Made by a program: the position numbers and the translations under genes
Shown here: positions 5,371 to 57,545 of the stretch, in pieces
How the letters are laid out: each line of letters begins with the position of its first letter
How positions within the stretch are numbered: the stretch's first letter is position 1
Origin: Piezodorus guildinii
Lineage: Eukaryota; Arthropoda; Insecta; Hemiptera; Pentatomidae
Direction of reading: 5' to 3'
Assembly (NCBI GenBank): GCA_023052935.1
Contig: CM041294.1
Location: 37,843,236-37,907,235 of the forward strand
DNA length: 64,000 bases
Notes under the pieces: generated by a model
What the model was told of the DNA's origin: nothing
The model's database searches: none
What the model saw: only the letters and a program-made list of their open reading frames with translations

Positions 5371-7192
5371 AAAGAACACCTCTCTTATTATTATTTCACG
5401 GCGCTACAACCCGGTCACGGGTCTTGGCCTCCTCCAACCGCCTCCTCCAATCATCACGGTCTTGAGCCGATGCCATCCAGCTCCTAACTCCCAGCAACAT
5501 GCGAAAGTAGGGATTTCTTCAGATTGGTCAATAAGGGAAGAAAGCAATACCTTAGTAAAGTGATGTCTTGTAAGGATAAACATGGAAACTTGTTGACCAA
5601 CAAGTCTGAAGTTCTTGACGAATGGAGGGATTATTTCAATGATCTTCTCAATCCAAGAGAAGGAGACTCTCATGATGAATTAGACAAACAAGAGACAGAT
5701 GAAATCAACAGAATACAAGTGGGAGAACAAGGGTTAGACATTGAACCTCCTGATGAAGAAGAGGTTATAGATGCCATCAGCAAACTGAAAAATAACAAAA
5801 CCCCTGGCATTGACGCACTCCCTGCTGAACTCTTGAAATACGGTGGAAATGAGCTCAACAAAGCATTACAAGATCTTCTCCTTGTGATATGGACAGATGA
5901 GGTGATGCCCTCCGATTGGAACAGATCAGTTATCTGCCCTATACATAAAAAGGGTGATAGATTACTTTGCAGCAATTATCGAGGCATCTCACTACTATCC
6001 TGTGCCTATAAAATACTATCTAATATTCTTTTTAGACGTCTCTTACCATTTGCTGAGCGCGAACTTGGTCCCTACCAGAGTGGATTCAGGAAAGGAAGAT
6101 CCACCTCAGACCAGATGTTCTGTGTGCGAACAATTCTTGAAAGAGGCCATGAGTATAAAACCAAAACTCACCATCTTTTCATAGATTTCAAAGCAGCGTA
6201 TGACAGCATAATACGAGAAGAGCTGTACATTGCCCTCAGAGAATTTAATATACCTGAGAAACTTATACGCTTGATAAAGCTTACCATGAAGGAGGTGAGA
6301 TGTATGGTAAGAGTAAATGGTGACAGGTCCAAGGAATTTCGTGCAGATAAAGGACTCCGACAAGGGGATGCACTAGCCTGTTTGCTGTTTAATCTAGCAC
6401 TTGAGAAGGCCGTAAGAGATGCTGGTTTACGCGAAAGAGAAGGGAATATATTTACCCGACTTGTCCAGCTGTTCGCTTACGCAGACGACATCGACATTGT
6501 GGGACGCTCTCTACAGTCCGTGACTGATGCCTTTCTGGCTTTGATGGGTCCTGCCAGCAGACTTGGACTGAACGTTAATGAGTCCAAAACAAAATATATG
6601 GTAGCAGAAGAAATCCCAATGCTAGGTGAGACAGTCACTATCGGGGTTCATAAGTTTGAGAAGGTCTCAGAGTTCACATACCTGGGATCAGTGGTCACCC
6701 AAGATAATAACCCCGATATTGAGATAAGGAGAAGAATAACTGCAGCCAACAAATGCTACTTTGGGTTAGGCAAGCAGCTAACCAAGCGGATACTCTCTAG
6801 ACAGACCAAGCTCCACCTCTATAAGACATTGGTACGTCCCGTACTGCTCTATGGATCAGAGTGTTGGGCGACTTCAAAGGCGACCGAGAAGGAACTCCTA
6901 ATTTTTGAAAGAAAAGTTCTCCGCCGTATTTTTGGAGGAGTGAAAGTTGGAGAGGAGTGGAAGCGGCGCACAAATCAGGACCTCTACAATGCTTTTGGAG
7001 AAGGTGATGTGGTCCGGGCTATGAAGTTAAGACGCCTAAGATATGCAGGGCATATTGCCAGGATGGAAAATGGAGAAATGCCCAAAATATTGCTCACTCA
7101 GCCGATCCATGGGATAAGAAGAAGAGGAAGACCAAGGTTGAGATGGTCGGATGGTGTGGCGGCGGAAAAAAAAAAAAAAAGAACACCTCTCT
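5371..7192 (-). mobile_element. RTE-type LINE with inverted body (twin-priming structure)
   Basis: Identical 15-base direct repeats AAAGAACACCTCTCT flank the insertion (5371-5385 and 7178-7192). Directly after the left one, on the minus strand, lies the true element 3' end: 5522 down to 5387 encodes the usual RTE C-terminal tail containing AQDRDDW and LEEAKTRDRV, a stop, and an AATAATAATA tail. The remaining 1.6 kb (5524-7165) is in the opposite orientation and stops at RWSDGVAA, just where the tail piece begins. An A-run (7166-7177) fills the right junction. This is the geometry expected from twin priming during target-primed reverse transcription. Endonuclease sequence is absent. Confidence 0.85.
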
Positions 7193-7197
7193 ACTAA
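5524..7197 (+). pseudogene. RTE-clade reverse transcriptase fragment
   Basis: An uninterrupted frame of about 547 element codons plus ten or so read from the A-run and target duplication. It lacks a natural start: the first codon at 5524 is TTG directly after the inversion junction, and the N-terminal endonuclease is missing. Reverse transcriptase motifs are clear: SNYRGISLLS (residues 150-159), GFRKGRST (187-194), FIDFKAAYDS (219-228), GLRQGDALACLLFNLALE (277-294) and the catalytic YADD (319-322). Downstream are the RTE connection motifs YLGSVVT, LYGSECW, ERKVLRRIFGG and GHIARM, then GRPRLRWSDGV. The protein would copy LINE RNA at a nicked target. It is a partial copy and cannot work alone, but the lack of stops suggests a fairly recent insertion. 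Confidence 0.85.

Positions 7198-16808: not shown

Positions 16809-16898
<90 letters not shown>
16809..16898. repeat. (AT)n followed by poly(T)
   Basis: About 25 AT units then about 38 T residues; on the minus strand this is the A-rich and (AT)n tail of the RTE-like relic next to it. Confidence 0.9.
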
Positions 16899-17503
16899 CA
16901 CGAAGAGGCCTTAGAGACCACGCGAATAACACGAATTGAATGCTTCCTCTTTACCTGCCTCCTCCCCTCCCATATACCCCTCATGAGCTCCGCCCGCTTA
17001 CCCTTCCTCTCCTCAGACCACGCAACACCCTTTCTGGAGCGCTTCTTTCCCGCAAGAACCTTTATTCTCTTGAGCGCCATCCTGTACTTATCCCTGTCAA
17101 AACAATCTTGATCTCTTAGCTCCACTTGTTCCATATCATCCTTAACCTTTTTGAAATATCCGGTTAAATGTTTATGACTGTGGATTCGCTGAAAATTTTT
17201 ATAGTTAAGTCTTTCGGAATTCATCCTCATCATATGGCCATAGAACCTCAGCCTTCCCACCCTAGCGTCAGTTTCTAGATCTGTGGTTTTCTTATATATT
17301 TCATCATTTGACCTCAACCTATATCCTTCAGGTGTTCTCCTAGGTCTGTAGATTCTTCTTAGAATTTTTCTTTCTATTTTCAGAAGGATTTCTAGGCTTG
17401 GAGGACAAGAAGTTATTGCGTAAAGTATCACTGGCTTGACGACTGTGTTATAATGTTGTATCCTAGCTTTTAGATCCCTATCATGTATATATAATATAAA
17501 CAA
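16898..17503 (-). pseudogene. RTE-like LINE C-terminal fragment
   Basis: A 201-codon frame beginning within the reverse transcriptase thumb. VVKPVILYA, LLKIERKILRRIYRPRRTPE and EGYRLRSNDEIYK, then VGRLRFYGHMMRMNSERL, are the connection region seen in many arthropod RTE-type ORFs. The catalytic domain is gone (5' truncation near 17490). The C-terminal 70 residues are basic. The tail is A-rich then (AT)n. A sister fragment lies at 20480-20671. Confidence 0.7.
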
Positions 17504-17529
17504 TACATAATTTTTATTTCCAAAATAAG

Positions 17530-18080
17530 TATTTATTACTTTTTTTTAAATGTTATTAAATAAAAAATATGTAAATATAAAAATACCCAGCCTGGAGCTA
17601 CTGACAACCTTCCCTTCGTTAAGCTCTCGACAAGGGTTGACGTTTACCGCCGGTCCGTCCGAGTTACAAACATCCACCTCCTGCTTCTTCCTGACGTACA
17701 AGCTCGCCGAAATGCCCCGCGGCCGGAGTGCGACAGGATACGAGAAGACAAAGGGTCGCGTCGACATATACTTAGCACTTTATTATAGCAGAGGAGAGCG
17801 GAGAGGCGAGCTAGGCCCGGGGATGTAATTTATGCCCGAGGAGAGGGGGGGCGGCGAGATCAAAGCGGCCCCCCCACACAGAGGGGTCCTAATTATGAAT
17901 GACTCCTTCCCACGACTGGTCTTCGGCCCTTACCTGCGACACCGGCTCTCGATTTACGACCTGTCCTTAATACACCTCAGTCGCTCGCCTTTCGTCCTTT
18001 GTCGTCCACTGTTTGTTTTCTTCCGAAATATTTCTCAAAATGTAGTCGGATTCACATCATCTCTCTCGCTATAGAATGAT
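17530..18080. other. GC-rich island, unassigned
   Basis: About 17600-18010 is far richer in G+C and CpG than its surroundings. Overlapping frames exist on both strands (17546-17767 minus, 17550-17828 and 17832-18074 plus), as expected from low stop-codon density; none shows recognisable similarity. Could be the regulatory part or first exon of a host gene, or part of an unknown transposon. Confidence 0.35.
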
Positions 18081-20479: not shown

Positions 20480-20671
20480 GCTCCTAAATTTTTATATAGA
20501 TCTCATCCTATATCCTTCCTGTGTTTTTCTAGGACCAAAAATTCTTCTTAAAGTACTTCTCTCTATCTTAAGCAAGTTTTCAATTCTTGTTTTCATGGCA
20601 TACAAGATGGCTGATCTTACCACAGTACTGCAATGTGTTAATTTTGCTTTTACAAAAATGTCCCTTTTGTT
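20480..20671 (-). pseudogene. RTE-like LINE relic
   Basis: Minus-strand codons include KAKLTHCSTVV, AILYA, NLLKIERSTLRRIFGPRKTQ and EGYRMRS, closely related to the fragment at 16898-17503. It ends where the inverted-repeat structure starts (20672). About 60 residues, not functional. Confidence 0.6.
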
Positions 20672-20679
20672 ATATAGCA

Positions 20680-20845
20680 TTTCCAAGTCAAATTCAACCT
20701 TTTCCAAGTCAAATTCAACCTTTTCCAAGTCAAATTCAACCTTTTCCAAGTCAAATTCAACCTTTTCCAAGTCAAATTCAACCTTTTCCAAGTCAAATTC
20801 AACCTTTTCCAAGTCAAATTCAACCTTTTCCATTTCAAATTCGAC
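20680..20845. repeat. 21-bp minisatellite, left arm
   Basis: About eight near-identical copies of a 21-base unit (TCCAAGTCAAATTCAACCTT and one more T). The last copy diverges. All four reading frames covering it are repeat translations. Confidence 0.95.
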
Positions 20846-21104
20846 CTTTTTTTATTTCAATAAAATATAAAAATCAAATTAACATGATTTTATGTTTTTA
20901 TGGTTATTTTAATTACACATTATGTTTTTAACCCTTGTGGCTTGTTAAATGTTCCCAGGGGCCTTTTTACATATAATTAGTCACGATTATAATAATAAGT
21001 ATAACCGACACTTTAATTTATAGACATTTTCGATACAATGTCTAGTAGTCGGATTAGCGGGGGTCCGTTTTATTTTAGTTTTATAATCGCGGGCGAAAAT
21101 ATTA

Positions 21105-21762
21105 TCAATAGAGGTTTATTATAACTTTTTCGTATTTATTGGATACAAGGCTCAGTAGATGCGTTCCCAAAGGTTCGCTACCGATTACACTATTAATTTT
21201 AATCGCGTTCGCTCAAATATTGCTTTATTATAACTTTTTCGTATTTATTGGATACAAGGCTCAGTAGCTCCGTTCCCAAAGGTTCGTTACCGATTACACT
21301 ATTAATTTTAATCGCGCTCGCTCAAATATGGCTTTATTATAACTTTTTCGTATTTATTAGATACAAGGCTCAGTAGCTCCGTTCCCAAAGGTTCGTTACC
21401 GATTACACAATTAATTTTAATCACGCTCGCTCAAATATGGCTCTATTATAACTTTTTCGTATTTATAGGATAGTAGGCTCAGTCGATGCGTTCACAAAGG
21501 TTCGTTACCAATTATACTATTAATTTTAATCGCGCTCGCTCAAATATGGCTTTATTATAACTTTTTCGTATTTATAGGACAGTAGCTCCGTTCCCAAAGG
21601 TTCGCTACCGATTACACTATTAATTTTAATCGCGTTCGCTCAAATATTGCTTTATTATAACTTTTTCGTATTTATTGTATACAAGGCACAGTAGCTCCGT
21701 TCCCAAAGGTTCGTTACCGATTACACTATTAATTTTAATCGCGCTCGCTCAAATATGGCTCT
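21105..21762 (+). repeat. 109-bp satellite, left arm part 1
   Basis: Six units. Each carries TATTATAACTTTTTCGTATT, GGCTCAGTAG, CCCAAAGGTTCG and TTAATTTTAATCGCGCTCGC. The array continues after the LTR at 22365. Confidence 0.95.
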
Positions 21763-22364
21763 TGTTTGTTAAATAATATTAATAAATTGGGTATGTGCGT
21801 TGGTTATATATTGCATGTGAAATAAATACGCCAGGCTATGTATAAAAGGAAATGTTTAATTGAAATTAATAATACAAAATAAAATAATAAAATGAATGCC
21901 CAATTCTAATGTGGTAAAGTAATAGTTCTGATTGTAATTAAATACTATAATTGTTAAATTAGTAGTCCTTCAATGTTATATTAATATTTAAGGTAAGCTT
22001 ATCTGCTGTCCCCCTGTGGGACTTGTCTTCTTCTCGATTATGAGTCTCTGCTGCCCCCCTGTGGGACTAGATGGTCACCCTGTGTGACTGGATGGAAGTC
22101 CTGTAGTACGTACGCACTCACTTACGACTCGACTTCGACTCGACTGCGACTCGACTGGGACTCGACTGCGACTCGACTGGGACTAGACTTCGACTGCGAT
22201 ATTTTAATTCCCGGCACTGTAATTCTCGGTAATGCGCATGCGCGCCCTTCTGGTAACTGCGTAAGTTAATCAGCACTATTACTTCGTATTTTTTAAAAAC
22301 AAATAAACCTTAAATAAACTAATATAAATTTATATACACAATAATTATCATAGAATCACCAACA
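21763..22364. mobile_element. solo LTR, 602 bp
   Basis: Starts TGTTTG and ends CCAACA, an imperfect inverted repeat of the usual TG...CA form. The satellite unit is cleanly interrupted and GCTCT is duplicated at both borders (21758-21762 and 22365-22369). Internal features: TATAAAA at 21841-21847, an AATAAA near 22301, a tandem repeat of CGACTCGACT-type units (about 22120-22195), and a perfect TGCGCATGCGC box at 22233-22243. No internal retroelement region, so it arose by recombination between two LTRs. Orientation likely plus, from the TATA and AATAAA order. Superfamily not determinable; the 5-bp duplication fits Gypsy or BEL. Confidence 0.85.
22233..22243. promoter_or_regulatory. NRF1-type palindromic site in the LTR
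   Basis: TGCGCATGCGC is the full consensus of NRF-1, whose insect counterpart is erect wing. It lies in the second half of the solo LTR. Match to a known motif only; binding is inference. Confidence 0.45.
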
Positions 22365-23560
22365 GCTCTATTATAACTTTTTCGTATTTATAGGATAGTA
22401 GGCTCAGTAGATGCGTTCTCAAAGGTTCGTTACCGATTACACTATTAATTTTAATCGCGCTCGCTCAAATATGGCTCTATTATAACTTTTTCGTATTTAT
22501 AAGATAGTAGGCTCAGTAGATGCGTTCACAAAGGTTCGTTACCAATTATACTATTAATTTTAATCGCGCTCGCTCAAATATGGCTTTATTATAACTTTTT
22601 CGTATTTATTGGATACAAGGCTCAGTAGCTCCGTTCCCAAAGGTTCGCTACCGATTACACTATTAATTTTAATCGCGTTCGCTCAAATATTGCTTTATTA
22701 TAACTTTTTCGTATTTATTGGATACAAGGCTCAGTAGCTCCGTTCCCAAAGGTTCGTTACCGATTACACTATTAATTTTAATCGCGCTCGCTCAAACATG
22801 GCTCTATTATAACTTTTTCGTATTTATTGGATACAAGGCTCAGTAGCTCCGTTCCCAAAGGTTCGTTACCGATTACACTATTAATTTTAATCGCGCTCGC
22901 TCAAATATGGCTCTATTATAACTTTTTTGTATTTATAGGATAGTAGGCTCAGTAGATGCGTTCACAAAGGTTCGTTACCGATTACACTATTAATTTTAAT
23001 CGCGCTCGCTCAAATATGGCTCTATTATAACTTTTTCGTATTTATAGGATAGTAGGCTCAGTAGATGCGTTCACAAAGGTTCGTTACCAATTATACTATT
23101 AATTTTAATCGCGCTCGCTCAAATATGGCTTTATTATAACTTTTTCATATTTATTGGATACTAGGTTCAGTAGCTGCGTTACGGGGGGTTCTATCCCGAC
23201 CATTATATTAATTATTCGTGCGCTCACTCAAATATGGGTTTATTATAACTTTTTTCGGATTTATTGGATACTAGGCTCAGTAGCTGCGTTCCCAAAGGTT
23301 CGTTACCGATCACACTATTAATTTTAATTGCGCTCGCTCATATATGGGTTTATTATAACTTTTTCGTAATTATTGGATACTAGGTTCAGTAGATGCGTTA
23401 CGGGGGGTTCTATCCCGACCATTCGATTAATTATTCGTGCACTCACTCAAATATGGGTTTATTATAACTTTTTCGTATTTATTGGATACTAGGCTCAGTA
23501 GCTGCGTTCCCAAAGGCGCGTTATCGATTATACTGCTAATTTTTATCGCGCTCGCTCAAA
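22365..23560 (+). repeat. 109-bp satellite, left arm part 2
   Basis: About eleven units. Two units near 23165 and 23395 are a variant with TTACGGGGGGTTCTATCCCG in place of the CCCAAAGGTTCG block. Confidence 0.95.
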
Positions 23561-23785
23561 TTTCTGCATTTGTGTTTTGGGGTGTTTTGTTAGTGAATGT
23601 GTTAATGTTTTTTTAGTCAGTTGGTCTAATGTATGTTTATTTCGTGCTTTTTGTAACTTTTCATCTATTGGGTTACCGCTAATCCTTTTTATCAGGATAG
23701 TAAGTTATCTTTTTGGTTAATATTTTGGAGTTTAATAATCAGCTAAACAAAACCATTTAATACGTCCGTTTTTATTTGATAAACC
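23561..23785. other. central spacer of the inverted-repeat element
   Basis: Unique T-rich sequence between the two arms. It has no open frame of note and no recognisable transposase. Confidence 0.7.
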
Positions 23786-25085
23786 TCTACTTGAGTTAGC
23801 GCAATTAAAATTAATAGTATAATCTGTAACCAGTCCTTGGTTACGCAGCGACTGAGCCTTGTATCCAATAAATATGAAAAAGTTATAATAAACCCATATT
23901 TGAGCGAGCGCGATTAAAATTAATAGTGTAATCGGTAACGAACCTTTGGGAACAGAGCTACTGAGCCTTGTATCCAATAAATACGAAAAAGTAATAATAA
24001 ACCCATATTTGAGCGAGCGCAATTAAAATTAATAGTGCGATCGGTAACGAACCTTTGGGAACGGAGCTATTGAGCCTTGTATCCAATAAATACGAAAAAG
24101 TTATAATAAACCCATATTTGAGCGAGCGCGATTAAAATTAATAGTGTAATCGGTAACGAACCTTTGGGAACGGAGCTACTGAGCCTTGTATCCAATAAAT
24201 ACGAAAAAGTAATAATAAACCCATATTTGAGCGAGCGCAATTAAAATTAATAGTGTAATCGGTAACGAACCTTTGGGAACGGAGCTATTGAGCCTTGTAT
24301 CCAATAAATACGAAAAAGTTATAATAAACCCATATTTGAGCGAGCGCAATTAAAATTAATAGTGCGATCGGTAACGAACCTTTGGGAACGCAGCAACTGA
24401 GCCTTGTATCCAATAAATCCGAAAAAGTTATAATAAACCCATATTTGAGCGAGCGCGATTAAAATTGATAGTGTAATCGGTAACGAACCTTTGGGAACGG
24501 AGCTACTGAGCCTAGTATCCAATAAATACGAAAAAGTTACAATAACCCATATTTGAGCGAGCGCGATTAAAATTAATATTGTAATCGGTAACGAACCTTT
24601 GTGAACGCATCGACTGAGCCTACTATCCTATAAATACGAAAAAGTTATAATAGAGCCATATTTGAGCGAGCGTGATTAAAATTAATTGTGTAATCGGTAA
24701 CGAACCTTTGGGAACGGAGCTACTGAGCCTTGTGTCTAATAAATACGAAAAAGTTATAATAAAGCCATATTTGAGCGAGCGCGATTAAAATTAATAGTGT
24801 AATCGGTAACGAACCTTTGGGAACGGAGCTACTGAGCCTTGTATCCAATAAATACGAAAAAGTTATAATAAAGCAATATTTGAGCGAACGCGATTAAAAT
24901 TAATAGTGTAATCGGTAGCGAACCTTTGGGAACGCAGCTACTGAGCCTAGTATACAATAAATACGAAAAAGTTATAATAAACCCATATTTGAGCGAGCGC
25001 GATTAAAATTAATAGTATATTCGGTAACGAACCTTTGGGAACGCAGCTACTGAGCTAACTATCCAATAAATACGAAAAAGTTAAA
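23786..25085 (-). repeat. 109-bp satellite, right arm
   Basis: Twelve units in reverse orientation; spacing between GAGCGAGCGC blocks is exactly 109 at 24011/24120. Minus frames at 23732-24022 and 24319-24522 are translations of this array. Confidence 0.95.
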
Positions 25086-25343
25086 TTAAACCTCTATTGA
25101 TAATATTTTCGCCCGCGATTATAAACTAAAATAAAACGAAACCCCGCTAATCCGACTATGTATCGAAAAGGTCTAAAAATTAAAGTATCGGTTATACTTA
25201 TTATTATAATCGTGACTAATTATATGTAAAGAGGCCCCCGGGATCATTTAACAAGCCACAGGGTTAAAAACATTATGTGTAATTAAAATAACCATAAATA
25301 CATAAAATCATGTTAATTTGATTTTTATTATTTTATTGAAATC

Positions 25344-25538
25344 GAAAAAGGTTGAATTTGACTTGGAAAAAGTTAAATTTGACTTGGAAAAGGTTGAATT
25401 TGACTTGGAAAAGGTTTAATTTGACTTGGAAAAGGTTGAATTTGACTTGGAAAAGGTTGAATTTGACTTGGAAAAGGTTGAATTTGACTTGGAAAAGGTT
25501 GAATTTGACTTGGAAAAGGTTGAATTTGACTTGGAAAT
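25344..25538. repeat. 21-bp minisatellite, right arm
   Basis: About nine copies of the reverse complement of the left-arm unit (GGAAAAGGTTGAATTTGACT and T). Confidence 0.95.
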
Positions 25539-25545
25539 GCTATAT

Positions 25546-32498: not shown

Positions 32499-35400
32499 CC
32501 TCGCGCGGATCTCATTACCGCGTATGGGGAGCGTCCCACGGGTGGCGGATGTGGGGATGGTCGGTGGAATTTCCTCGGAAGCTCCTCCCGGCTAAGTCCG
32601 ATGGACTCGCTGACCAACAATGAGAGCGGCCCCCCAGGCTTGCTGGAGGGTGTGACGTAGGTTCGAACGCCCTACTCACATATTTTAGTTCACAAAATAT
32701 CACCAAAAGTCATGGATTCCTCTGAGGTAAAACGCTCATTATCCGGAGGTAAACTAGTCCCCCGTTCGGGTCTCCGGGTGGGGACTGCTTCAGGGGAATC
32801 ATGGCGCAAGATGAAAATTAGAGATCTAACAATAGGGACGTGGAACGTTAGAAGTTTAAATACGGCAGGTGGGTTAAAGTCGGTCGCGAATGAAGTTAAG
32901 GGGTACCATTTAGATATCGTTGCATTACAAGAGGTTCGCTGGCCAGGGGAGTGTTCGTTAACAGAAGGAAAGTATACTATTTGGTACGGGGGGAGCGTTA
33001 ATTATTGTCTAGGTACCGGGTTTCTGATTAGGAATAGATTTCTTTCCGCTTTACGGGACGTACAGTTCTTTAGTGAAAGAATATCGGTTGCTATATTTCA
33101 AGGGCGTTGGTTTAAAATCGCGGTTATAAACATTCATTCTCCCACCGAAGACAGTGATGATGAAGTAAAATGCGAATTTTATGATAAACTAGAGTCGGTT
33201 TACGATAAGTTACCACGAAATTACATTAAGATAATACTAGGCGACGCGAACGCAAAGGTTGGAAGGGAAGAAGTATATCGTCCTACAATCGGTAAAGAAA
33301 GTTTGCACGAATATAGTAATGATAATGGGACCCGACTAATAAACTTTGCCATTTCGAAAAACCTAGTAATCAAAAGTACTACATTTAAACATAAGGATAT
33401 TCATAAGTATACGTGGACATCGCCGGATGGACAAACACGGAATCAAATCGATCATGTTTTAATACAAAACAGATGGCAAAGTAGCATAATTAACGTGAGA
33501 TCGTATCGGGGTGCAGAATGCGGTTCTGATCATGAATTAGTAATCGCGAAACTTCGACAAAAACTAAATACAAAAAAGAGAACACCGAACTATATTCGTC
33601 CCGAGAATTTTGATTTAGTTAAATTGAACAACCTCGAAATTAGAAAACAATTCGCGATAGAAGTAAAAAATCGGTTCGAAGCTTTGGAATCTTCAGACGA
33701 GGAACACAAAGATGTAAACAAACTATGGGAAGGGATCAGGGATAATATTAAAGAGGTCGGTAATTTATGTCTTGGAAAAATTGAAAATAAAAAGAACAAA
33801 CCTTGGTTCGACAGGGATTGTCAAAATATGTGCGAAAAAAGAAAAACCGCTAAACTGAATTCCTTAAATAATCCAAGCGATAATAATGTGGCTTATTTTC
33901 GGTTAGTAAAGAATGAAACTTCAAAACTCTTAAAAAATAAGAAAAGAGAGTATCTTAAAGGCAAAATAATAGAAATAGAAAAACACAGAAACGAAAATGA
34001 CGTAAGAGAGATGTACAAAGGTATAAACAAATCGCGTAAAAGATTTGAACCTCTATTGAATGCGATTAAAGATGCAAATAACAATATAATTGCGGATCCT
34101 TCTGAGATATTAAATAAATTTAAACAACACTTTGACGGCATCTTAAATACGGAAAATAATAATCAATCTCCTCTCTCTGAATATCAGAGCGCTGAACCAT
34201 GGATAGACGCACCGAGTAAAGAGGAAGTCGAAATGGCGATAGGAAAATTAAAACGTTATAAGGCCGCAGGAAATGATAATATCACGAGTGAATTAATCAA
34301 GGCGTGTGGAGAAGCCGTCGTTTCCAAAATACATTTTTTAGTTAAAAAGATCTGGGAAACTGAAAAAATGCCCGAGGAATGGAAAGAATCAATACTTATT
34401 CCGATTCACAAAAAAGGACCGAGGTCGGATTGTAACAACTATCGTGGGATCTCTCTTCTCCCAGTATGCTATAAAATATTCTCGTAAATTCTAACTAGTC
34501 GAATCACGGAATACGCTGAGGAAATTATCGGAGATTACCAATGTGGTTTTAGGCGGAATCGCTCGACTATTGACCAAATATTTTCCCTACGTCAAATATT
34601 AGAGAAAAAAATGGAATACAACGGTGTAGTCCATCAACTTTATATCGATTTTAAAAAGGCTTATGATTCAATAGACCGTCAGAAGCTATATAACATCATG
34701 ATTGAACAGGGAATACCTAGAAAGTTAGTAAACCTAGTAGAGATGTGTTTGTCGGAAACATTCCATAAAGTTAGAATCGGTCATAATTACTCCGAGAGAT
34801 TTGAGGTGCGATCGGGTTTAAAACAGGGTGACTCCCTTTCACCTGTGTTATTTAATTTAGCTTTAGAATATGTCATAGAAAAGGTGATGTGTACCGAGAA
34901 AGGCTTAAATATGGGTGACAAGATTCCGGTTTTGGGGTATGCCGATGATCTGGTATTGCTAGGTGAAGACACGGAAACCATACAACTAAATACAAGTGTG
35001 TTAATAAAAACCGGTAAAGAAATAGGACTCGAATTAAATACCGATAAAACGAAGTATATGATTAGTAGCAGAAACGGTGTCGATCTTGGAGATATTGATG
35101 TATCAGGTCATACTTTTGAACACGTAGAGAAATTCAAGTATTTAGGTTCAATTATAACTAGAAAAAATGAAATCCAGGAAGAAATAAAGTCCCGGTTAAA
35201 GGTGGGAAATGCGTGTTATTATTCAGTTGCTAAGTTACTTAGTTCGCGGCTTCTATCTAAAAACTTAAAGATTAGAATTTATAAAACTATTATTCTTCCA
35301 ACGGTTCTTTACGGATGTGAAACGTGGCCGCTTACTTTAAAGGATGAACAGCGGCTTAAGGTTTTCGAAAATAAAGTATTGCGTAAAATATTTGGTCCAA

Positions 35401-35737
35401 AGAGAGATGAGGCCACTGGGGAGTTTAGAAGGTTGCATAACGCGGAATTGCGGAACTTGCATCCTGTGAATATAATTGAGCTGATTGCATCGCGGAGACT
35501 CAAATGGGCGAGTAAAGTTGTTGGGCTCGATGACGAACGGATTCCGAGAAAGTTGGTATTTGCTGATCCGACTGGTAGGCGTCCGAAAGGTAGGCCGAAG
35601 CGAAGATGGGAGGATTGCGTTAAGGCTGATCTCGGGAGCTTGGGCTTGAATGGTGAGCATTGGACGAGTCTGTGTAGGCGGAATTTGGTGGTATCGGCAT
35701 CGAACCTTCGGGTTCGCTAAGCCTATTATTATTATTA
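32499..35737 (+). mobile_element. full-length RTE-clade LINE
   Basis: A 3239-bp insertion with 14-base direct repeats TTATACATTCTATT at both ends (32485-32498 and 35738-35751; up to three bases may belong to the tail). The 5' end is a GC-rich leader of 213 bases without a separate ORF1. A single reading frame encodes endonuclease and reverse transcriptase, and the element ends in a short (TTA)n tail rather than poly(A), as RTE elements do. It interrupts family A copy 4, so that copy is older. Apparently complete and young apart from one stop codon. Confidence 0.92.
32712..35720 (+). pseudogene. RTE endonuclease-reverse transcriptase with one internal stop
   Basis: The frame runs 1002 codons from ATG 32712 to TAA 35718, broken only by TAA at 34485-34487 (codon 592); the flanking parts are in phase. 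Endonuclease of the exonuclease III/APE type: TWNVRSLN (43-50, N45), QEVRW (E74), GDANAKVG (D178, N180), NQIDHV (244-249) and SDHELV (D273, H274). Reverse transcriptase: IPIHKKG, NYRGISLL, QCGFRRNRST, YIDFKKAYDS, GLKQGDSLSPVLFNLALEYV and catalytic YADD (743-746). C-terminal connection motifs YLGSIIT, LYGCETW, FENKVLRKIFGPKR and GRPKGRPKRRWED (last part altered) follow. It would nick target DNA and reverse-transcribe its own RNA. The stop lies between motifs of the fingers domain, removing reverse transcription unless read through. Confidence 0.9.
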
Positions 35738-38736: not shown

Positions 38737-39455
38737 AGGCCGGTCCACACGCTCCGTTTTGCACAACGTTTTGTCTGCGCAGTTCAAAACGTTGCAGATA
38801 AAACGTTGCGTGTGGACTGGAAAACCGTGCAGTTTTGAATCCATTTGGAAGACGGTACAGTCTTAGTAAAACTGAGCCAGACAGCTCAGATTTCCTTGAA
38901 CTGCGCAGGCAAGTCGGCGCATGTGGACGGTAGCACCGTTTTCCGATCCGTTTTGCTACTCAGTACTCAGTTTCAATTCATATCTTTGTAACTTCTACCA
39001 GTTGCCAAAAATCTTAAAGTTGCTGTTAGCCTTTCATGTGCTGATATTGCTGTTCTCATACAAGTATTTTCTTTGTTGATATGCGGTGTCACCAATTCCA
39101 ATAAATAAGTATATGTGTCAATGTCCATTCGCAAGTAGTTCCGCCAATCATTAGGTTCATCACGTAATTCACGCAATAATTTGATATGGGAAAAGTGCTG
39201 CCTTTTTAGAAGCCACTTCCGCGACCACTTTGAACGCCGGGTACTTCTGAGATGTTCCAATCTTTTTTTTTTAACAATACAAATCGCAAAAATTGACCAG
39301 AGTAGTACCTCCTCCATGACGATCTCACACAAAACTGAGCAAAATATACTGATATGTCTGTGCCGTGTGGACGCTCTGCAAATTGCAACGTTTTCATTCC
39401 GTCTTAAGTCTGCGCAGACAAAATGTTGTGCAAAACGGAGCGTGTGGACCGGCCT
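38737..39455 (-). mobile_element. PIF/Harbinger deletion derivative, 719 bp
   Basis: The 46-base terminal inverted repeats (38737-38782 and 39410-39455) begin AGGCCGGTCCACACGCTCCG and differ at one position. TAA is duplicated at both ends (38734-38736 and 39456-39458), the three-base target duplication of PIF/Harbinger. Between them is an N-terminal transposase segment only, plus subterminal copies of the CGTGTGGAC motif. It is non-autonomous and must be moved by a full-length relative. Confidence 0.92.
38973..39317 (-). pseudogene. HARBI1/ALP1-like transposase, N-terminal part
   Basis: The methionine at 39317 (MEEVLLW) is the likely start; an upstream in-frame extension to 39461 runs through the terminal repeat and is discounted. 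114 residues survive, against about 380-400 in the family. A basic region RSTRRSKWSRKW is followed by LRELRDEPNDWRNYLRMD and ERLTATLRFLATG, the N-terminal block that precedes the DDE nuclease in nuclease HARBI1-like proteins. The whole catalytic domain is deleted, after which non-coding element sequence begins. It could at most make a DNA- or partner-binding fragment, which is inference. Confidence 0.75.
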
Positions 39456-39458
39456 TAA

Positions 39459-40380
39459 CACAGAGTATCACACTGTGGCAAAGATTTTCCATCAGACCTT
39501 GACGAGATTTTTTTTATTTTACATCATCCACCAACAGGTCAAGGCCCAATTACAAGCGGTAAATCACACAAAAAATCACATTACACTATATTAATTAAAA
39601 TAATAATAATTGAAATTGAAACTAATTGGTAATGTACTACATACCAGTTATGTATGTATAGAGATGTAGTTTTCTGGACGAAGAAACGCCATATTATAAA
39701 CTCTAAACAAGCATCTGCAAAAAGTTCCGCTCAAGCTGCCGAAAATATTATTACGAAACACATTATTCCATTTATTTCATTATTATTGTTATCATACCTA
39801 TTTATTCATTTTCGACGATATGGTCCAGCAAGTACCTAGGTCTCTTTTACATCTCCATATTCTTCTATTCCGAGATCTTCTAATATTCATTTTCTTCAGC
39901 ACGTCCTCCACTTCGTCTTCCGACCTAAGTCATGGTCTCCTTGTATCACATCTAAAAGTAGGTCGATAATCGTACATCTGTTTAGGAATACATTTCCTGG
40001 ACATACGTTCTACAAGTATTATTTAATATATCTGTGGCGGTCGTGAATAAGTGGTTAAGTCAAAATCGTAAAACTTTACATAACACCCAAAATAGAATAA
40101 TTAACATACAGCTTTCTTTCCACCTGAAATTTCTACCTCCAAGAAATTTCTTTAACCAATTTAACACGACGTGGGAGACGGTCTGGGGGAGCGATACGTG
40201 GAGCTACCTCATTTTTGATATAACTCGAGTTATCCAGTTTTTCACGACCACCACAGATATAGAAAACCCAAATTTTTTAATGTTGGAGTTATGTTGACCG
40301 TTGAGAAATTAGATGAGGAAGTTGGTTGGGGGTGCAGTCATAAATTAGATACACACATTTAAAATAAGTGCTATTTTAAT
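39459..40380. other. unassigned
   Basis: AT-rich; frames at 39654-39839 and 40034-40297 are not recognised. No repeat family identified. Confidence 0.3.
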
Positions 40381-57037: not shown

Positions 57038-57221
57038 TTCGGTTGTTTCACATGAAATGTCCGTTTTTATAGTTTCTGAAATACATAAAGGATTTTGCAG
57101 GTCTCTGTTGTTTTCTTCCGAATGTTTACATATTTAAAGTAAACAGTTACTAATCCTCTACCTATGTATTATAAACATTAGCTTCCCAATCAATCACCCA
57201 CTTTTTAGTATACCTCCAAAT

Positions 57222-57545
57222 ATGAATATGGAAACACGCGATTTTCGAGTAATATTTTTTTACGAGTTTAAACTCGGCCATTCATCAGCTGAGGCCACTA
57301 GAAATATTTGCAAGGCGTTTGGGGAAGAGAGTGTTAATGAACGGACCATTCGCCGTTGGTTTGCTAAGTTTTCAGCTGTGGATACCGACTTGGAAAACTT
57401 GCCCCGAGGAAGACCTCCGTCCGTAATAGACAACAATGTCCTCAAACATACAGTAGAAGGAAACCCCTACCAACAGTTAAAGGACTCTCAGCACAACTAA
57501 ATGCAAGTGCATCTACTGTTTCCAGACATTTAAAGTGTATTGGGA
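57222..57545 (+). pseudogene. mariner transposase N-terminal domain
   Basis: Frame 57222-57500 gives a helix-turn-helix region with FRVIFFYEFKLGHSSAEATR, ICKAFGE and NERTIRRWFAKFS, followed by the linker RGRPPSVIDNN. A frameshift near 57465 moves the second helix-turn-helix (PTVKGLSAQLNASASTVSRH) into the next frame up to 57545. These domains bind the terminal inverted repeats in mariners. It is not contiguous with a catalytic domain here. Confidence 0.8.

Follow-up and report, generated by a model that had tools for sequence, protein, structure and literature searches.

The window analysed here, a 64-kb stretch of Piezodorus guildinii DNA, contains a 4,868-bp element with the ends TAGCATTTCC and GGAAATGCTA (Table 1). 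Around a central spacer, its two arms carry in mirror order a 21-bp minisatellite, a single-copy segment and a 109-bp satellite array. These three nested layers had been described in the original prediction and are real, with the boundaries of the element proper and of the spacer as given in Table 1. As computed on the window, the inverted arms extend over up to 766 nt with a complementarity of 91%. Such a short middle between long inverted termini with internal repeats corresponds to the foldback type of element. In the left arm, the tandem-repeat reading detects the 21-bp repeat over positions 20680-20850, with 98% matches, and the left and right single-copy segments share 95.6% identity over aligned positions. 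The left 109-bp array is interrupted by a 602-bp insertion, flanked by a 5-bp duplication (GCTCT, at 21758-21762 and 22365-22369); judged from its ends, this insertion looks like a solo LTR. The possibility that the 109-bp unit arose out of the single-copy part of the arm was also considered. The score was reached by 0 of 300 shuffles on the left and by 19 of 300 on the right, and such a derivation is not claimed.

Table 1. Features of the window element and of the related transposase gene (window positions unless preceded by a contig name)
Feature	Position	Strand	Remarks
Entire element	20675-25542	.	ends TAGCATTTCC/GGAAATGCTA
TA target duplication, left copy	20673-20674	.	rule from L014, L059
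TA target duplication, right copy	25543-25544	.	
Outer layer, left arm: 21-bp minisatellite	20675-20850	+	~8 units; begins with terminal TAGCATTTCC
Single-copy segment, left arm	20851-21114	+	~264 bp; ~240 bp conserved across other copies
109-bp satellite array, left arm, outer portion	21115-21762	+	6 units
Later insertion, solo-LTR-like	21763-22364	.	602 bp; foreign to the element; TG...CA ends
109-bp satellite array, left arm, inner portion	22365-23561	+	11 units
Central spacer	23562-23778	.	217 bp
109-bp satellite array, right arm	23779-25092	-	12 units; mirror orientation
Single-copy segment, right arm	25093-25345	-	mirrors 20851-21114
Outer layer, right arm: 21-bp minisatellite	25346-25542	-	~9 units; closes with GGAAATGCTA
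DDE_3 domain of the C5 relative	C5 7424404-7424805		in the transposase frame

This structure is mobile, and the P. guildinii genome contains hundreds of copies of it. The 33-base element end has 1,580 matches genome-wide, and the reversed-pattern control has none. With a 401-base arm query, at least 43 full-length matches (93-100%, window copy included) were found on seven contigs, the best 40 of 2,159 first-look candidates being scored. Both arms are present in mirror order in 15 of 20 fetched regions. The copies carry TAGCATTTCC at both ends, and these identical outer ends are set in differing flanks, so that the foldback-like mobile element proposed at the outset is borne out. Moreover, among 100 listed ends, neighbours at most 20 kb apart face inward in 25 cases and outward in one. 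Of the 15 fetched copies with both arms, 12 match the central spacer over at least 200 bp, in either direction. Internal flipping of the spacer was considered for these plus and minus orientations and rejected, since with symmetric arms the orientation just reflects the direction of insertion. A sister family accounts for 2,992 further matching ends.

No target duplication had been recognised in the original prediction. However, the window copy has TA directly outside each end, and both a comparison with an empty site and a nested insertion reveal the TA duplication. Using a strict end pattern, TA lies directly outside 53 of 55 element ends among the genome copies (56 matches minus one chance match; paired ends from the same element do not count independently). 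A looser pattern also takes in internal 21-bp units (113/176 after TC). When the flanks of one copy, L014, are joined so that one TA is left between them, the joined sequence aligns across the junction to 10 distinct places that lack the element; ten joined flank pairs were tried, and this empty site was found at L014 among the matches listed. A 4-bp TATA duplication is ruled out, the L014 empty site being 2 bp too short for it. The nested insertion in L059 gives a TA duplication as well. Taken alone, L059 fits equally well with a reading without duplication in which the ends are ATAGC...GCTAT, but a TA duplication accounts more simply for all ends together. The IS630-Tc1-mariner superfamily inserts at TA, which it duplicates, and has terminal inverted repeats whose outer ends are conserved; the window family shows both features. 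The TA duplication argues for Tc1/mariner and against both Galileo/P and Mutator/Rehavkus.

The satellite varies in extent among the copies. In derived copies, the array of each arm comprises 1-17 units, and in some of these copies one arm is expanded while both transposon ends are kept. At L061/L062, about 58 satellite units with 95% identity form an array of ~6 kb within an element; this 12.4-kb region had been examined as a candidate transposase carrier but consists for the most part of expanded satellite. A second expanded array, on C1, is indicated by match positions only: 18 exact minus-strand unit matches, spaced near multiples of 109, spread over 12.5 kb and are flanked by two ends 16 kb apart.

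This raises the question of the enzyme that mobilises the family. As originally reported, the window copy contains no transposase, and none was found in the four large interiors of family copies that were checked. Three of these interiors, in L020, L023 and L028, are made up of inserted non-LTR retrotransposons, and that of L022 has no open frame of at least 90 residues. Genome-wide, DDE_3 transposases gave 7,325 first-look candidates, of which the 150 scored matches above the family cut-off were listed. A relative, L067, was found through DDE_3 matches near 49 variant ends (pattern TAGCATTTCCAAGTCB), which were taken, unread, as mostly single-base variants and one of which led to this locus. 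The expected number of chance DDE_3 neighbours within 2 kb of a variant end is ~0.02 against the 150 scored matches and about one against all 7,325 first-look candidates. At L067, an end identical over 15/15 bases is followed by one 21-bp-type unit and lies ~800 bp from a broken DDE_3 gene (Pfam DDE_3, 1.7e-16), disrupted by stops and by a mariner-like insertion; the one L067 end read has no 21-bp array. When the 113-bp unit of L067 is compared with the 109-bp unit of the window, the score is reached by 2 of 500 shuffles for the whole tract and by 111 of 2,000 for a single unit; this homology is suggestive only. The single-copy segments of L067 and of the window show no significant likeness (26 of 500 shuffles reach the score).

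An unbroken relative is located on C5. There, a DDE_3 gene (111 bits), with a 398-aa open frame without stops, is 83% identical to the L067 gene piece and is flanked by mirrored arrays of 113-bp units. The arrays are represented by eight plus-strand and eight minus-strand rows of arm matches, obtained with a shortened L067 query, the longer version being swamped by another dispersed repeat. About four 21-bp minisatellite units are found near the right end, in a reading that stops short of the outermost bases. In the transposase of the relatives, 34 residues, counted by eye, separate the second D from the E. The search for a relative with a transposase between its arms, suggested in the original prediction, was therefore successful. 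Low-copy and with arms of the same plan, the C5 relative is likely to be the enzyme source for the window family.

Very probably, then, the window element is a non-autonomous, foldback-armed transposon of the IS630-Tc1-mariner type, with the C5 relative as likely enzyme source. In the corresponding mechanism, a transposase encoded elsewhere in the genome would recognise the TAGCATTTCC ends and probably also the 21-bp repeated units, as additional binding sites. The element would be excised and then inserted at TA, often within (TA)n tracts, with duplication of the TA. The 109-bp satellite would be carried within the arms, where its copy number may shift by unequal exchange or slippage and may sometimes grow many-fold in one arm. 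A C5-type DDE_3 transposase would move the whole family.

Alternatively, the element may be a TA-inserting transposon mobilised by another TA-specific enzyme. We consider this unlikely. In its favour, the genome is rich in DDE_3-class transposases, the C5 relative was read short of its ends, and beyond the end the L067 arms bear only a weak resemblance to those of the window family. Against it stand the shared terminus and the 21-bp-type unit close to the L067 gene, as well as the three-layer arm plan that encloses the unbroken C5 gene. A further possibility, that copies multiplied chiefly through repair or recombination at (TA)n microsatellites, for instance from circular DNA and without transposase, appears improbable. 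In its favour, 23 of the 55 ends lie inside TA runs of at least 5, to be compared with 164 of the 6,276 TA sites of the window. However, the other 32 ends lie outside such runs, and both insertions into known sequence (L014 and L059) show one clean TA duplication.

Galileo has a target duplication of 7 bp. That the window family would be a foldback element of the Mutator/Rehavkus or P/Galileo type is highly improbable, despite the shared anatomy of long, internally repetitive inverted termini with satellites, as the available parts of the sources describe it (PMC4079207, PMC10218199, PMC3688188). Tetris, from Drosophila virilis, is likewise a non-autonomous foldback element; its inverted termini comprise an outer domain, a ~220-bp tandem-repeat array, and inner and middle domains, and its repeats expand into satellite arrays of kb size (PMC4079207, in the part available). 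According to the same text, Tetris has 8-10-bp target duplications, a proposed membership of Mutator and three structurally complete copies, and its transposase source was not found. In contrast, the window family duplicates TA and has two repeat layers in each arm; its end is matched 1,580 times, a sister family exists, and a relative bears a transposase. Rehavkus-1_TC of Tribolium, linked with TCsat23, also has tandem repeats or satellite in its inverted termini (PMC10218199, in part). The original prediction, whose author knew of no described element with this unit structure, was wrong or too strong on this point in view of Tetris and Rehavkus-1_TC. In the Rehavkus group, the accessible text gives a 9-bp target duplication and a Mutator-like transposase with a PHD finger (PMC6446971), whereas the window clan has a 2-bp TA duplication and DDE_3. 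Galileo of Drosophila, which belongs to the P superfamily, encodes a THAP transposase and has foldback-like long termini with tandem repeats, within which additional transposase-binding sites are found (PMC3688188, in part). The likeness to foldback elements or Galileo initially put forward therefore holds for the foldback shape but not for Galileo, because a TA duplication is unfit for the P superfamily; moreover, the relatives carry DDE_3, and Galileo is not known to insert at TA. Finally, a single copy might have been taken for a satellite locus that was duplicated in inverted orientation and never moved, or for an error of assembly. Both readings are refuted by the hundreds of matching ends genome-wide, by copies that share their ends yet sit in different flanks across seven contigs and by the L014 empty-site alignments.

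Tc1-like elements with repeated binding sites target TA and have two units per end, where the window element has a 21-bp array and then a satellite. The Helitrons and Helentrons that carry satellites are not known to have long terminal inverted repeats or target duplications, in contrast to the inverted arms and TA duplication of the window element. Among Tc1-like elements, Sleeping Beauty and Bari have repeated binding sites in bipartite termini, as far as the available part of the source describes them (PMC3688188). In Xenopus, miDNA4 (Scalvenzi and Pollet), as PMC12628747 describes it, is a Tc1/mariner MITE with a satellite present as a single monomer or an array of varying copy number. By this description the miDNA4 satellite is internal, whereas the window element has mirrored arrays in both arms.

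Satellite-bearing inverted termini are already known from Tetris and Rehavkus; the TA class, the two repeat layers and the transposase between the arms set the present case apart. How satellites originate and spread is an old question, and here several stages can be seen together in the same genome: an element that has mirrored arrays and bears a transposase, derived copies with 1-17 units per arm, and one-arm expansions of ~6 kb and, by match positions, 12.5 kb. A TA-inserting class is thereby added to the satellite-armed elements, of which those described in the available sources are Mutator- or P-like. Since satellite arms occur in TA inserters as well as in Mutator- and P-like elements, the arm design looks convergent, which opens to testing the idea that selection favours repeated units in the arms because the transposase binds them. 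On balance, we favour a Tc1/mariner-type clan that comprises two or more families of high copy number, with 1,580 and 2,992 matching ends, as well as a low-copy member whose transposase frame is unbroken, and in which three-layer foldback arms with built-in minisatellite and satellite are retained by the transposase-bearing member. On this reading the element would be a self-dispersing satellite factory, with arrays seeded at TA and expanding in place to 6-12 kb.

The original prediction had described three layers in mirror order around a central spacer, each arm consisting of a 21-bp minisatellite, a single-copy segment and a 109-bp satellite, and this arrangement is present in the window sequence as stated. 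It had also reported that no target duplication was found; this needs to be corrected, as TA lies immediately outside the element at left and right. The left 109-bp array is interrupted by an insertion that is most simply a solo LTR and that contains an internal CGACTCGACTG tandem repeat.

Features of the window (L014 is a copy elsewhere in the genome)
Feature	Position	Size	Remarks
Window element	20675-25542	4,868 bp	start TAGCATTTCC, finish GGAAATGCTA
Insertion in left 109-bp array	21763-22364	602 bp	TG...CA ends; 5-bp duplication GCTCT
Reverse-transcriptase-like frame fragments	20492-20670 and 16898-17545, minus strand		mutually similar by eye; DNA match 73.6% over 91 bases; one adjoins the left flank of the element
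Long non-LTR retrotransposon frames	5488-7197 and 32661-35720, plus strand	569, 608, 410 aa	assigned by eye
Dispersed host repeat, one family	2868-2591, 59745-59478, 37014-36737		79-88% to L014 flanks
Frame	57138-57500		presumably resembling a mariner N-terminus
Frame	38973-39467		presumably resembling a Harbinger-type N-terminus

Searching the whole genome (1.2 Gb) at no more than one mismatch, the 33-base end TATAGCATTTCCAAGTCAAATTCAACCTTTTCC gave 785 + 795 matches and the reversed control pattern gave 0; half the end-match count puts the copy number at an estimated 800 or so. With a 401-base query from the arm, at least 43 full-length matches were obtained across seven contigs, the window included (40 scored out of 2,159 first-look candidates). 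Several copies with common ends, which the original prediction had proposed to look for, thus exist: besides the end matches, two mirrored arms with 21-bp units, the segment of about 240 bp and 109-bp units were found in 15 of 20 fetched regions (L009-L028), one of which, L017, has a right end without its final bases. The spacer is matched over at least 200 bp in 12 of these 15 copies, partially in two and not in one. As for the other regions, L010 has a single complete arm with satellite opposite, L022 has a single arm, and L020, L023 and L028 are disrupted by non-LTR retrotransposon insertions or the fetched region ends first. Among the first 100 ends listed, neighbours less than 20 kb apart form 25 inward-facing pairs versus one outward-facing, with a median span of 3.3 kb.

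The strict end pattern identified 56 distinct ends in the fetched DNA, of which one was dropped, by its sequence, as a chance match. TA is found directly outside 53 of the other 55, which are non-independent since each element has two ends; the exceptions are in L015 and L025. TA runs of at least five precede 23 of the 55 ends versus 164 of 6,276 TA sites in the window, and may have lengthened after insertion. At least one of ten flank pairs tried gave an empty-site match, L014 being the sole one among the matches listed. Joined with one TA, its flanks align across the junction to 10 different sites that have no element, including the three window sites of the host repeat (table). Left of the junction the alignments cover 14-31 bases, and right of it at most 248, with small gaps near the junction in two and a substitution within the TA itself in some. 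In L059, where an element is nested in the arm of another, the uninterrupted arm gives TA again, with one adjacent base differing. A 4-bp TATA duplication was rejected, as the empty site would have to be 2 bp longer.

Arm segments of the same element share a mean identity of 97.5% (17 elements, excluding L059 and four one-armed copies) versus 95.8% between elements, and the same-element mean was reached by 0 of 2,000 permutations. Because the sample was chosen mostly by similarity to the window, these divergences are not ages. In L019 and L027, the left arm is of the main type and the right arm clusters with L059/L060; copies have thus exchanged arms. At L060, read with L065 and L066 (C1:39047900-39054600), one element has about 455 bp of host flank on both sides in inverted orientation, bordered on the left by a fragment of another 21-bp array, which is an element-associated inverted duplication. 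In L064 (C1:53756100), a 354-bp unit made of the element end and the beginning of a mariner-like insertion occurs in three tandem copies (229-1112).

Satellite content varies widely, with 1-17 units per arm in fetched copies (BLAST count). For a 26-base stretch of the 109-bp unit, the genome has 5,957 + 5,781 matches at no more than two mismatches (control 0), that is 7.4 per matched end genome-wide versus 5.0 in the fetched regions plus window (216 for 43 ends, L061 and L062 excluded). L061/L062 carry about 58 units in one arm, on average 95% identical pairwise; a single run of about 6 kb contains 55 of these, and the outer part of the arm is fragmented. Another two ends, C1:15977058 and C1:15993087, have between them 18 exact unit matches on the minus strand, distributed across C1:15979979-15992515 at intervals mostly near multiples of 109, and two plus-strand matches that cover less than 1 kb. 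From match positions alone, these ends would delimit one element with an expanded array.

As in the original prediction, neither the window copy nor the four large interiors examined yielded a transposase frame, and the interiors of the remaining fetched copies are occupied by arm units and spacer. In a genome search with DDE_3 (PF13358), the second-best match, C1:58830446-58830778 (L067), has a variant end, one of 49, at a distance of 940 bp. There, TATA precedes TAGCATTTCCAAGTC, followed by one 21-bp-type unit and 2.3 copies of a 113-bp unit; the minus strand holds a broken DDE_3 gene carrying a mariner-like insertion. By our own arithmetic, the chance of such a neighbourhood is about 0.02 against the 150 scored DDE_3 matches, and it is not unlikely against all 7,325 first-look candidates. 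The association of end and gene is further supported because the L067 arm, inward from the 21-bp-type unit, recurs as a repeat at other places. Positions ~541-743 of L067 belong to a different dispersed repeat, elsewhere often in adjacent inverted pairs, mostly 93-100% alike (40 scored out of 1,207 first-look candidates).

An uninterrupted 121-residue piece of L067 has at least 10 genome matches, itself included (150 scored out of 4,160 candidates). Among those scored, the best non-self match, C5:7424587-7424946 (83% identical), falls in a stop-free 398-residue frame. L067-arm DNA (40 scored out of 1,001 candidates) matches on either side of this gene: C5:7422032-7423379 has 8 rows, all on the plus strand, and C5:7425625-7427096 has 8 on the minus strand. 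The 121 bases read near the right end contain about four 21-bp minisatellite units of the same kind. Together, these arms and the minisatellite, seen near the right end, indicate that the plan of minisatellite, segment, satellite, middle and mirror occurs with a transposase at its centre, the kind of relative that the first reading had suggested seeking.

There is also a sister family. TAGCATTTCCNNNTCAANTGTNACCTTTTCC at no more than one mismatch gave 1,486 + 1,506 genome matches (control 0), the end of the window family being two bases short of matching this pattern. Among the first 100 of these sister-family ends listed, 41 neighbour pairs within 20 kb face inward and 0 outward; one pair, C1:30186018/30189093, has L067-type units matched between its ends at 30188285-30188642. 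Several of the scored places align with the greater part of the L067 arm at 70-73%, including the mirrored pairs C2:129510865/129514519 and C4:148296025/148297075. At C2:47465720-47469788, mirrored L067-type unit arrays of about 1 kb each side, 2 kb apart, are probably a further sister element.

Satellites or tandem repeats within inverted termini are already known in Tetris (PMC4079207) and Rehavkus-1_TC (PMC10218199; group features in PMC6446971), which the present family resembles in this respect; miDNA4, as described in PMC12628747, is a Tc1/mariner MITE that carries a satellite. The open-licence literature searched, mostly through its listings, yielded no foldback element that inserts at TA and has satellite in its arms. 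The P. guildinii elements combine many copies, fixed ends, a TA duplication, mirrored arms, satellite growth within the element and, in a relative, a transposase frame between such arms. A DDE_3 enzyme of the C5 type would move the window family, with the 21-bp units as putative transposase binding sites, and the satellite arrays would lengthen via unequal exchange or slippage.
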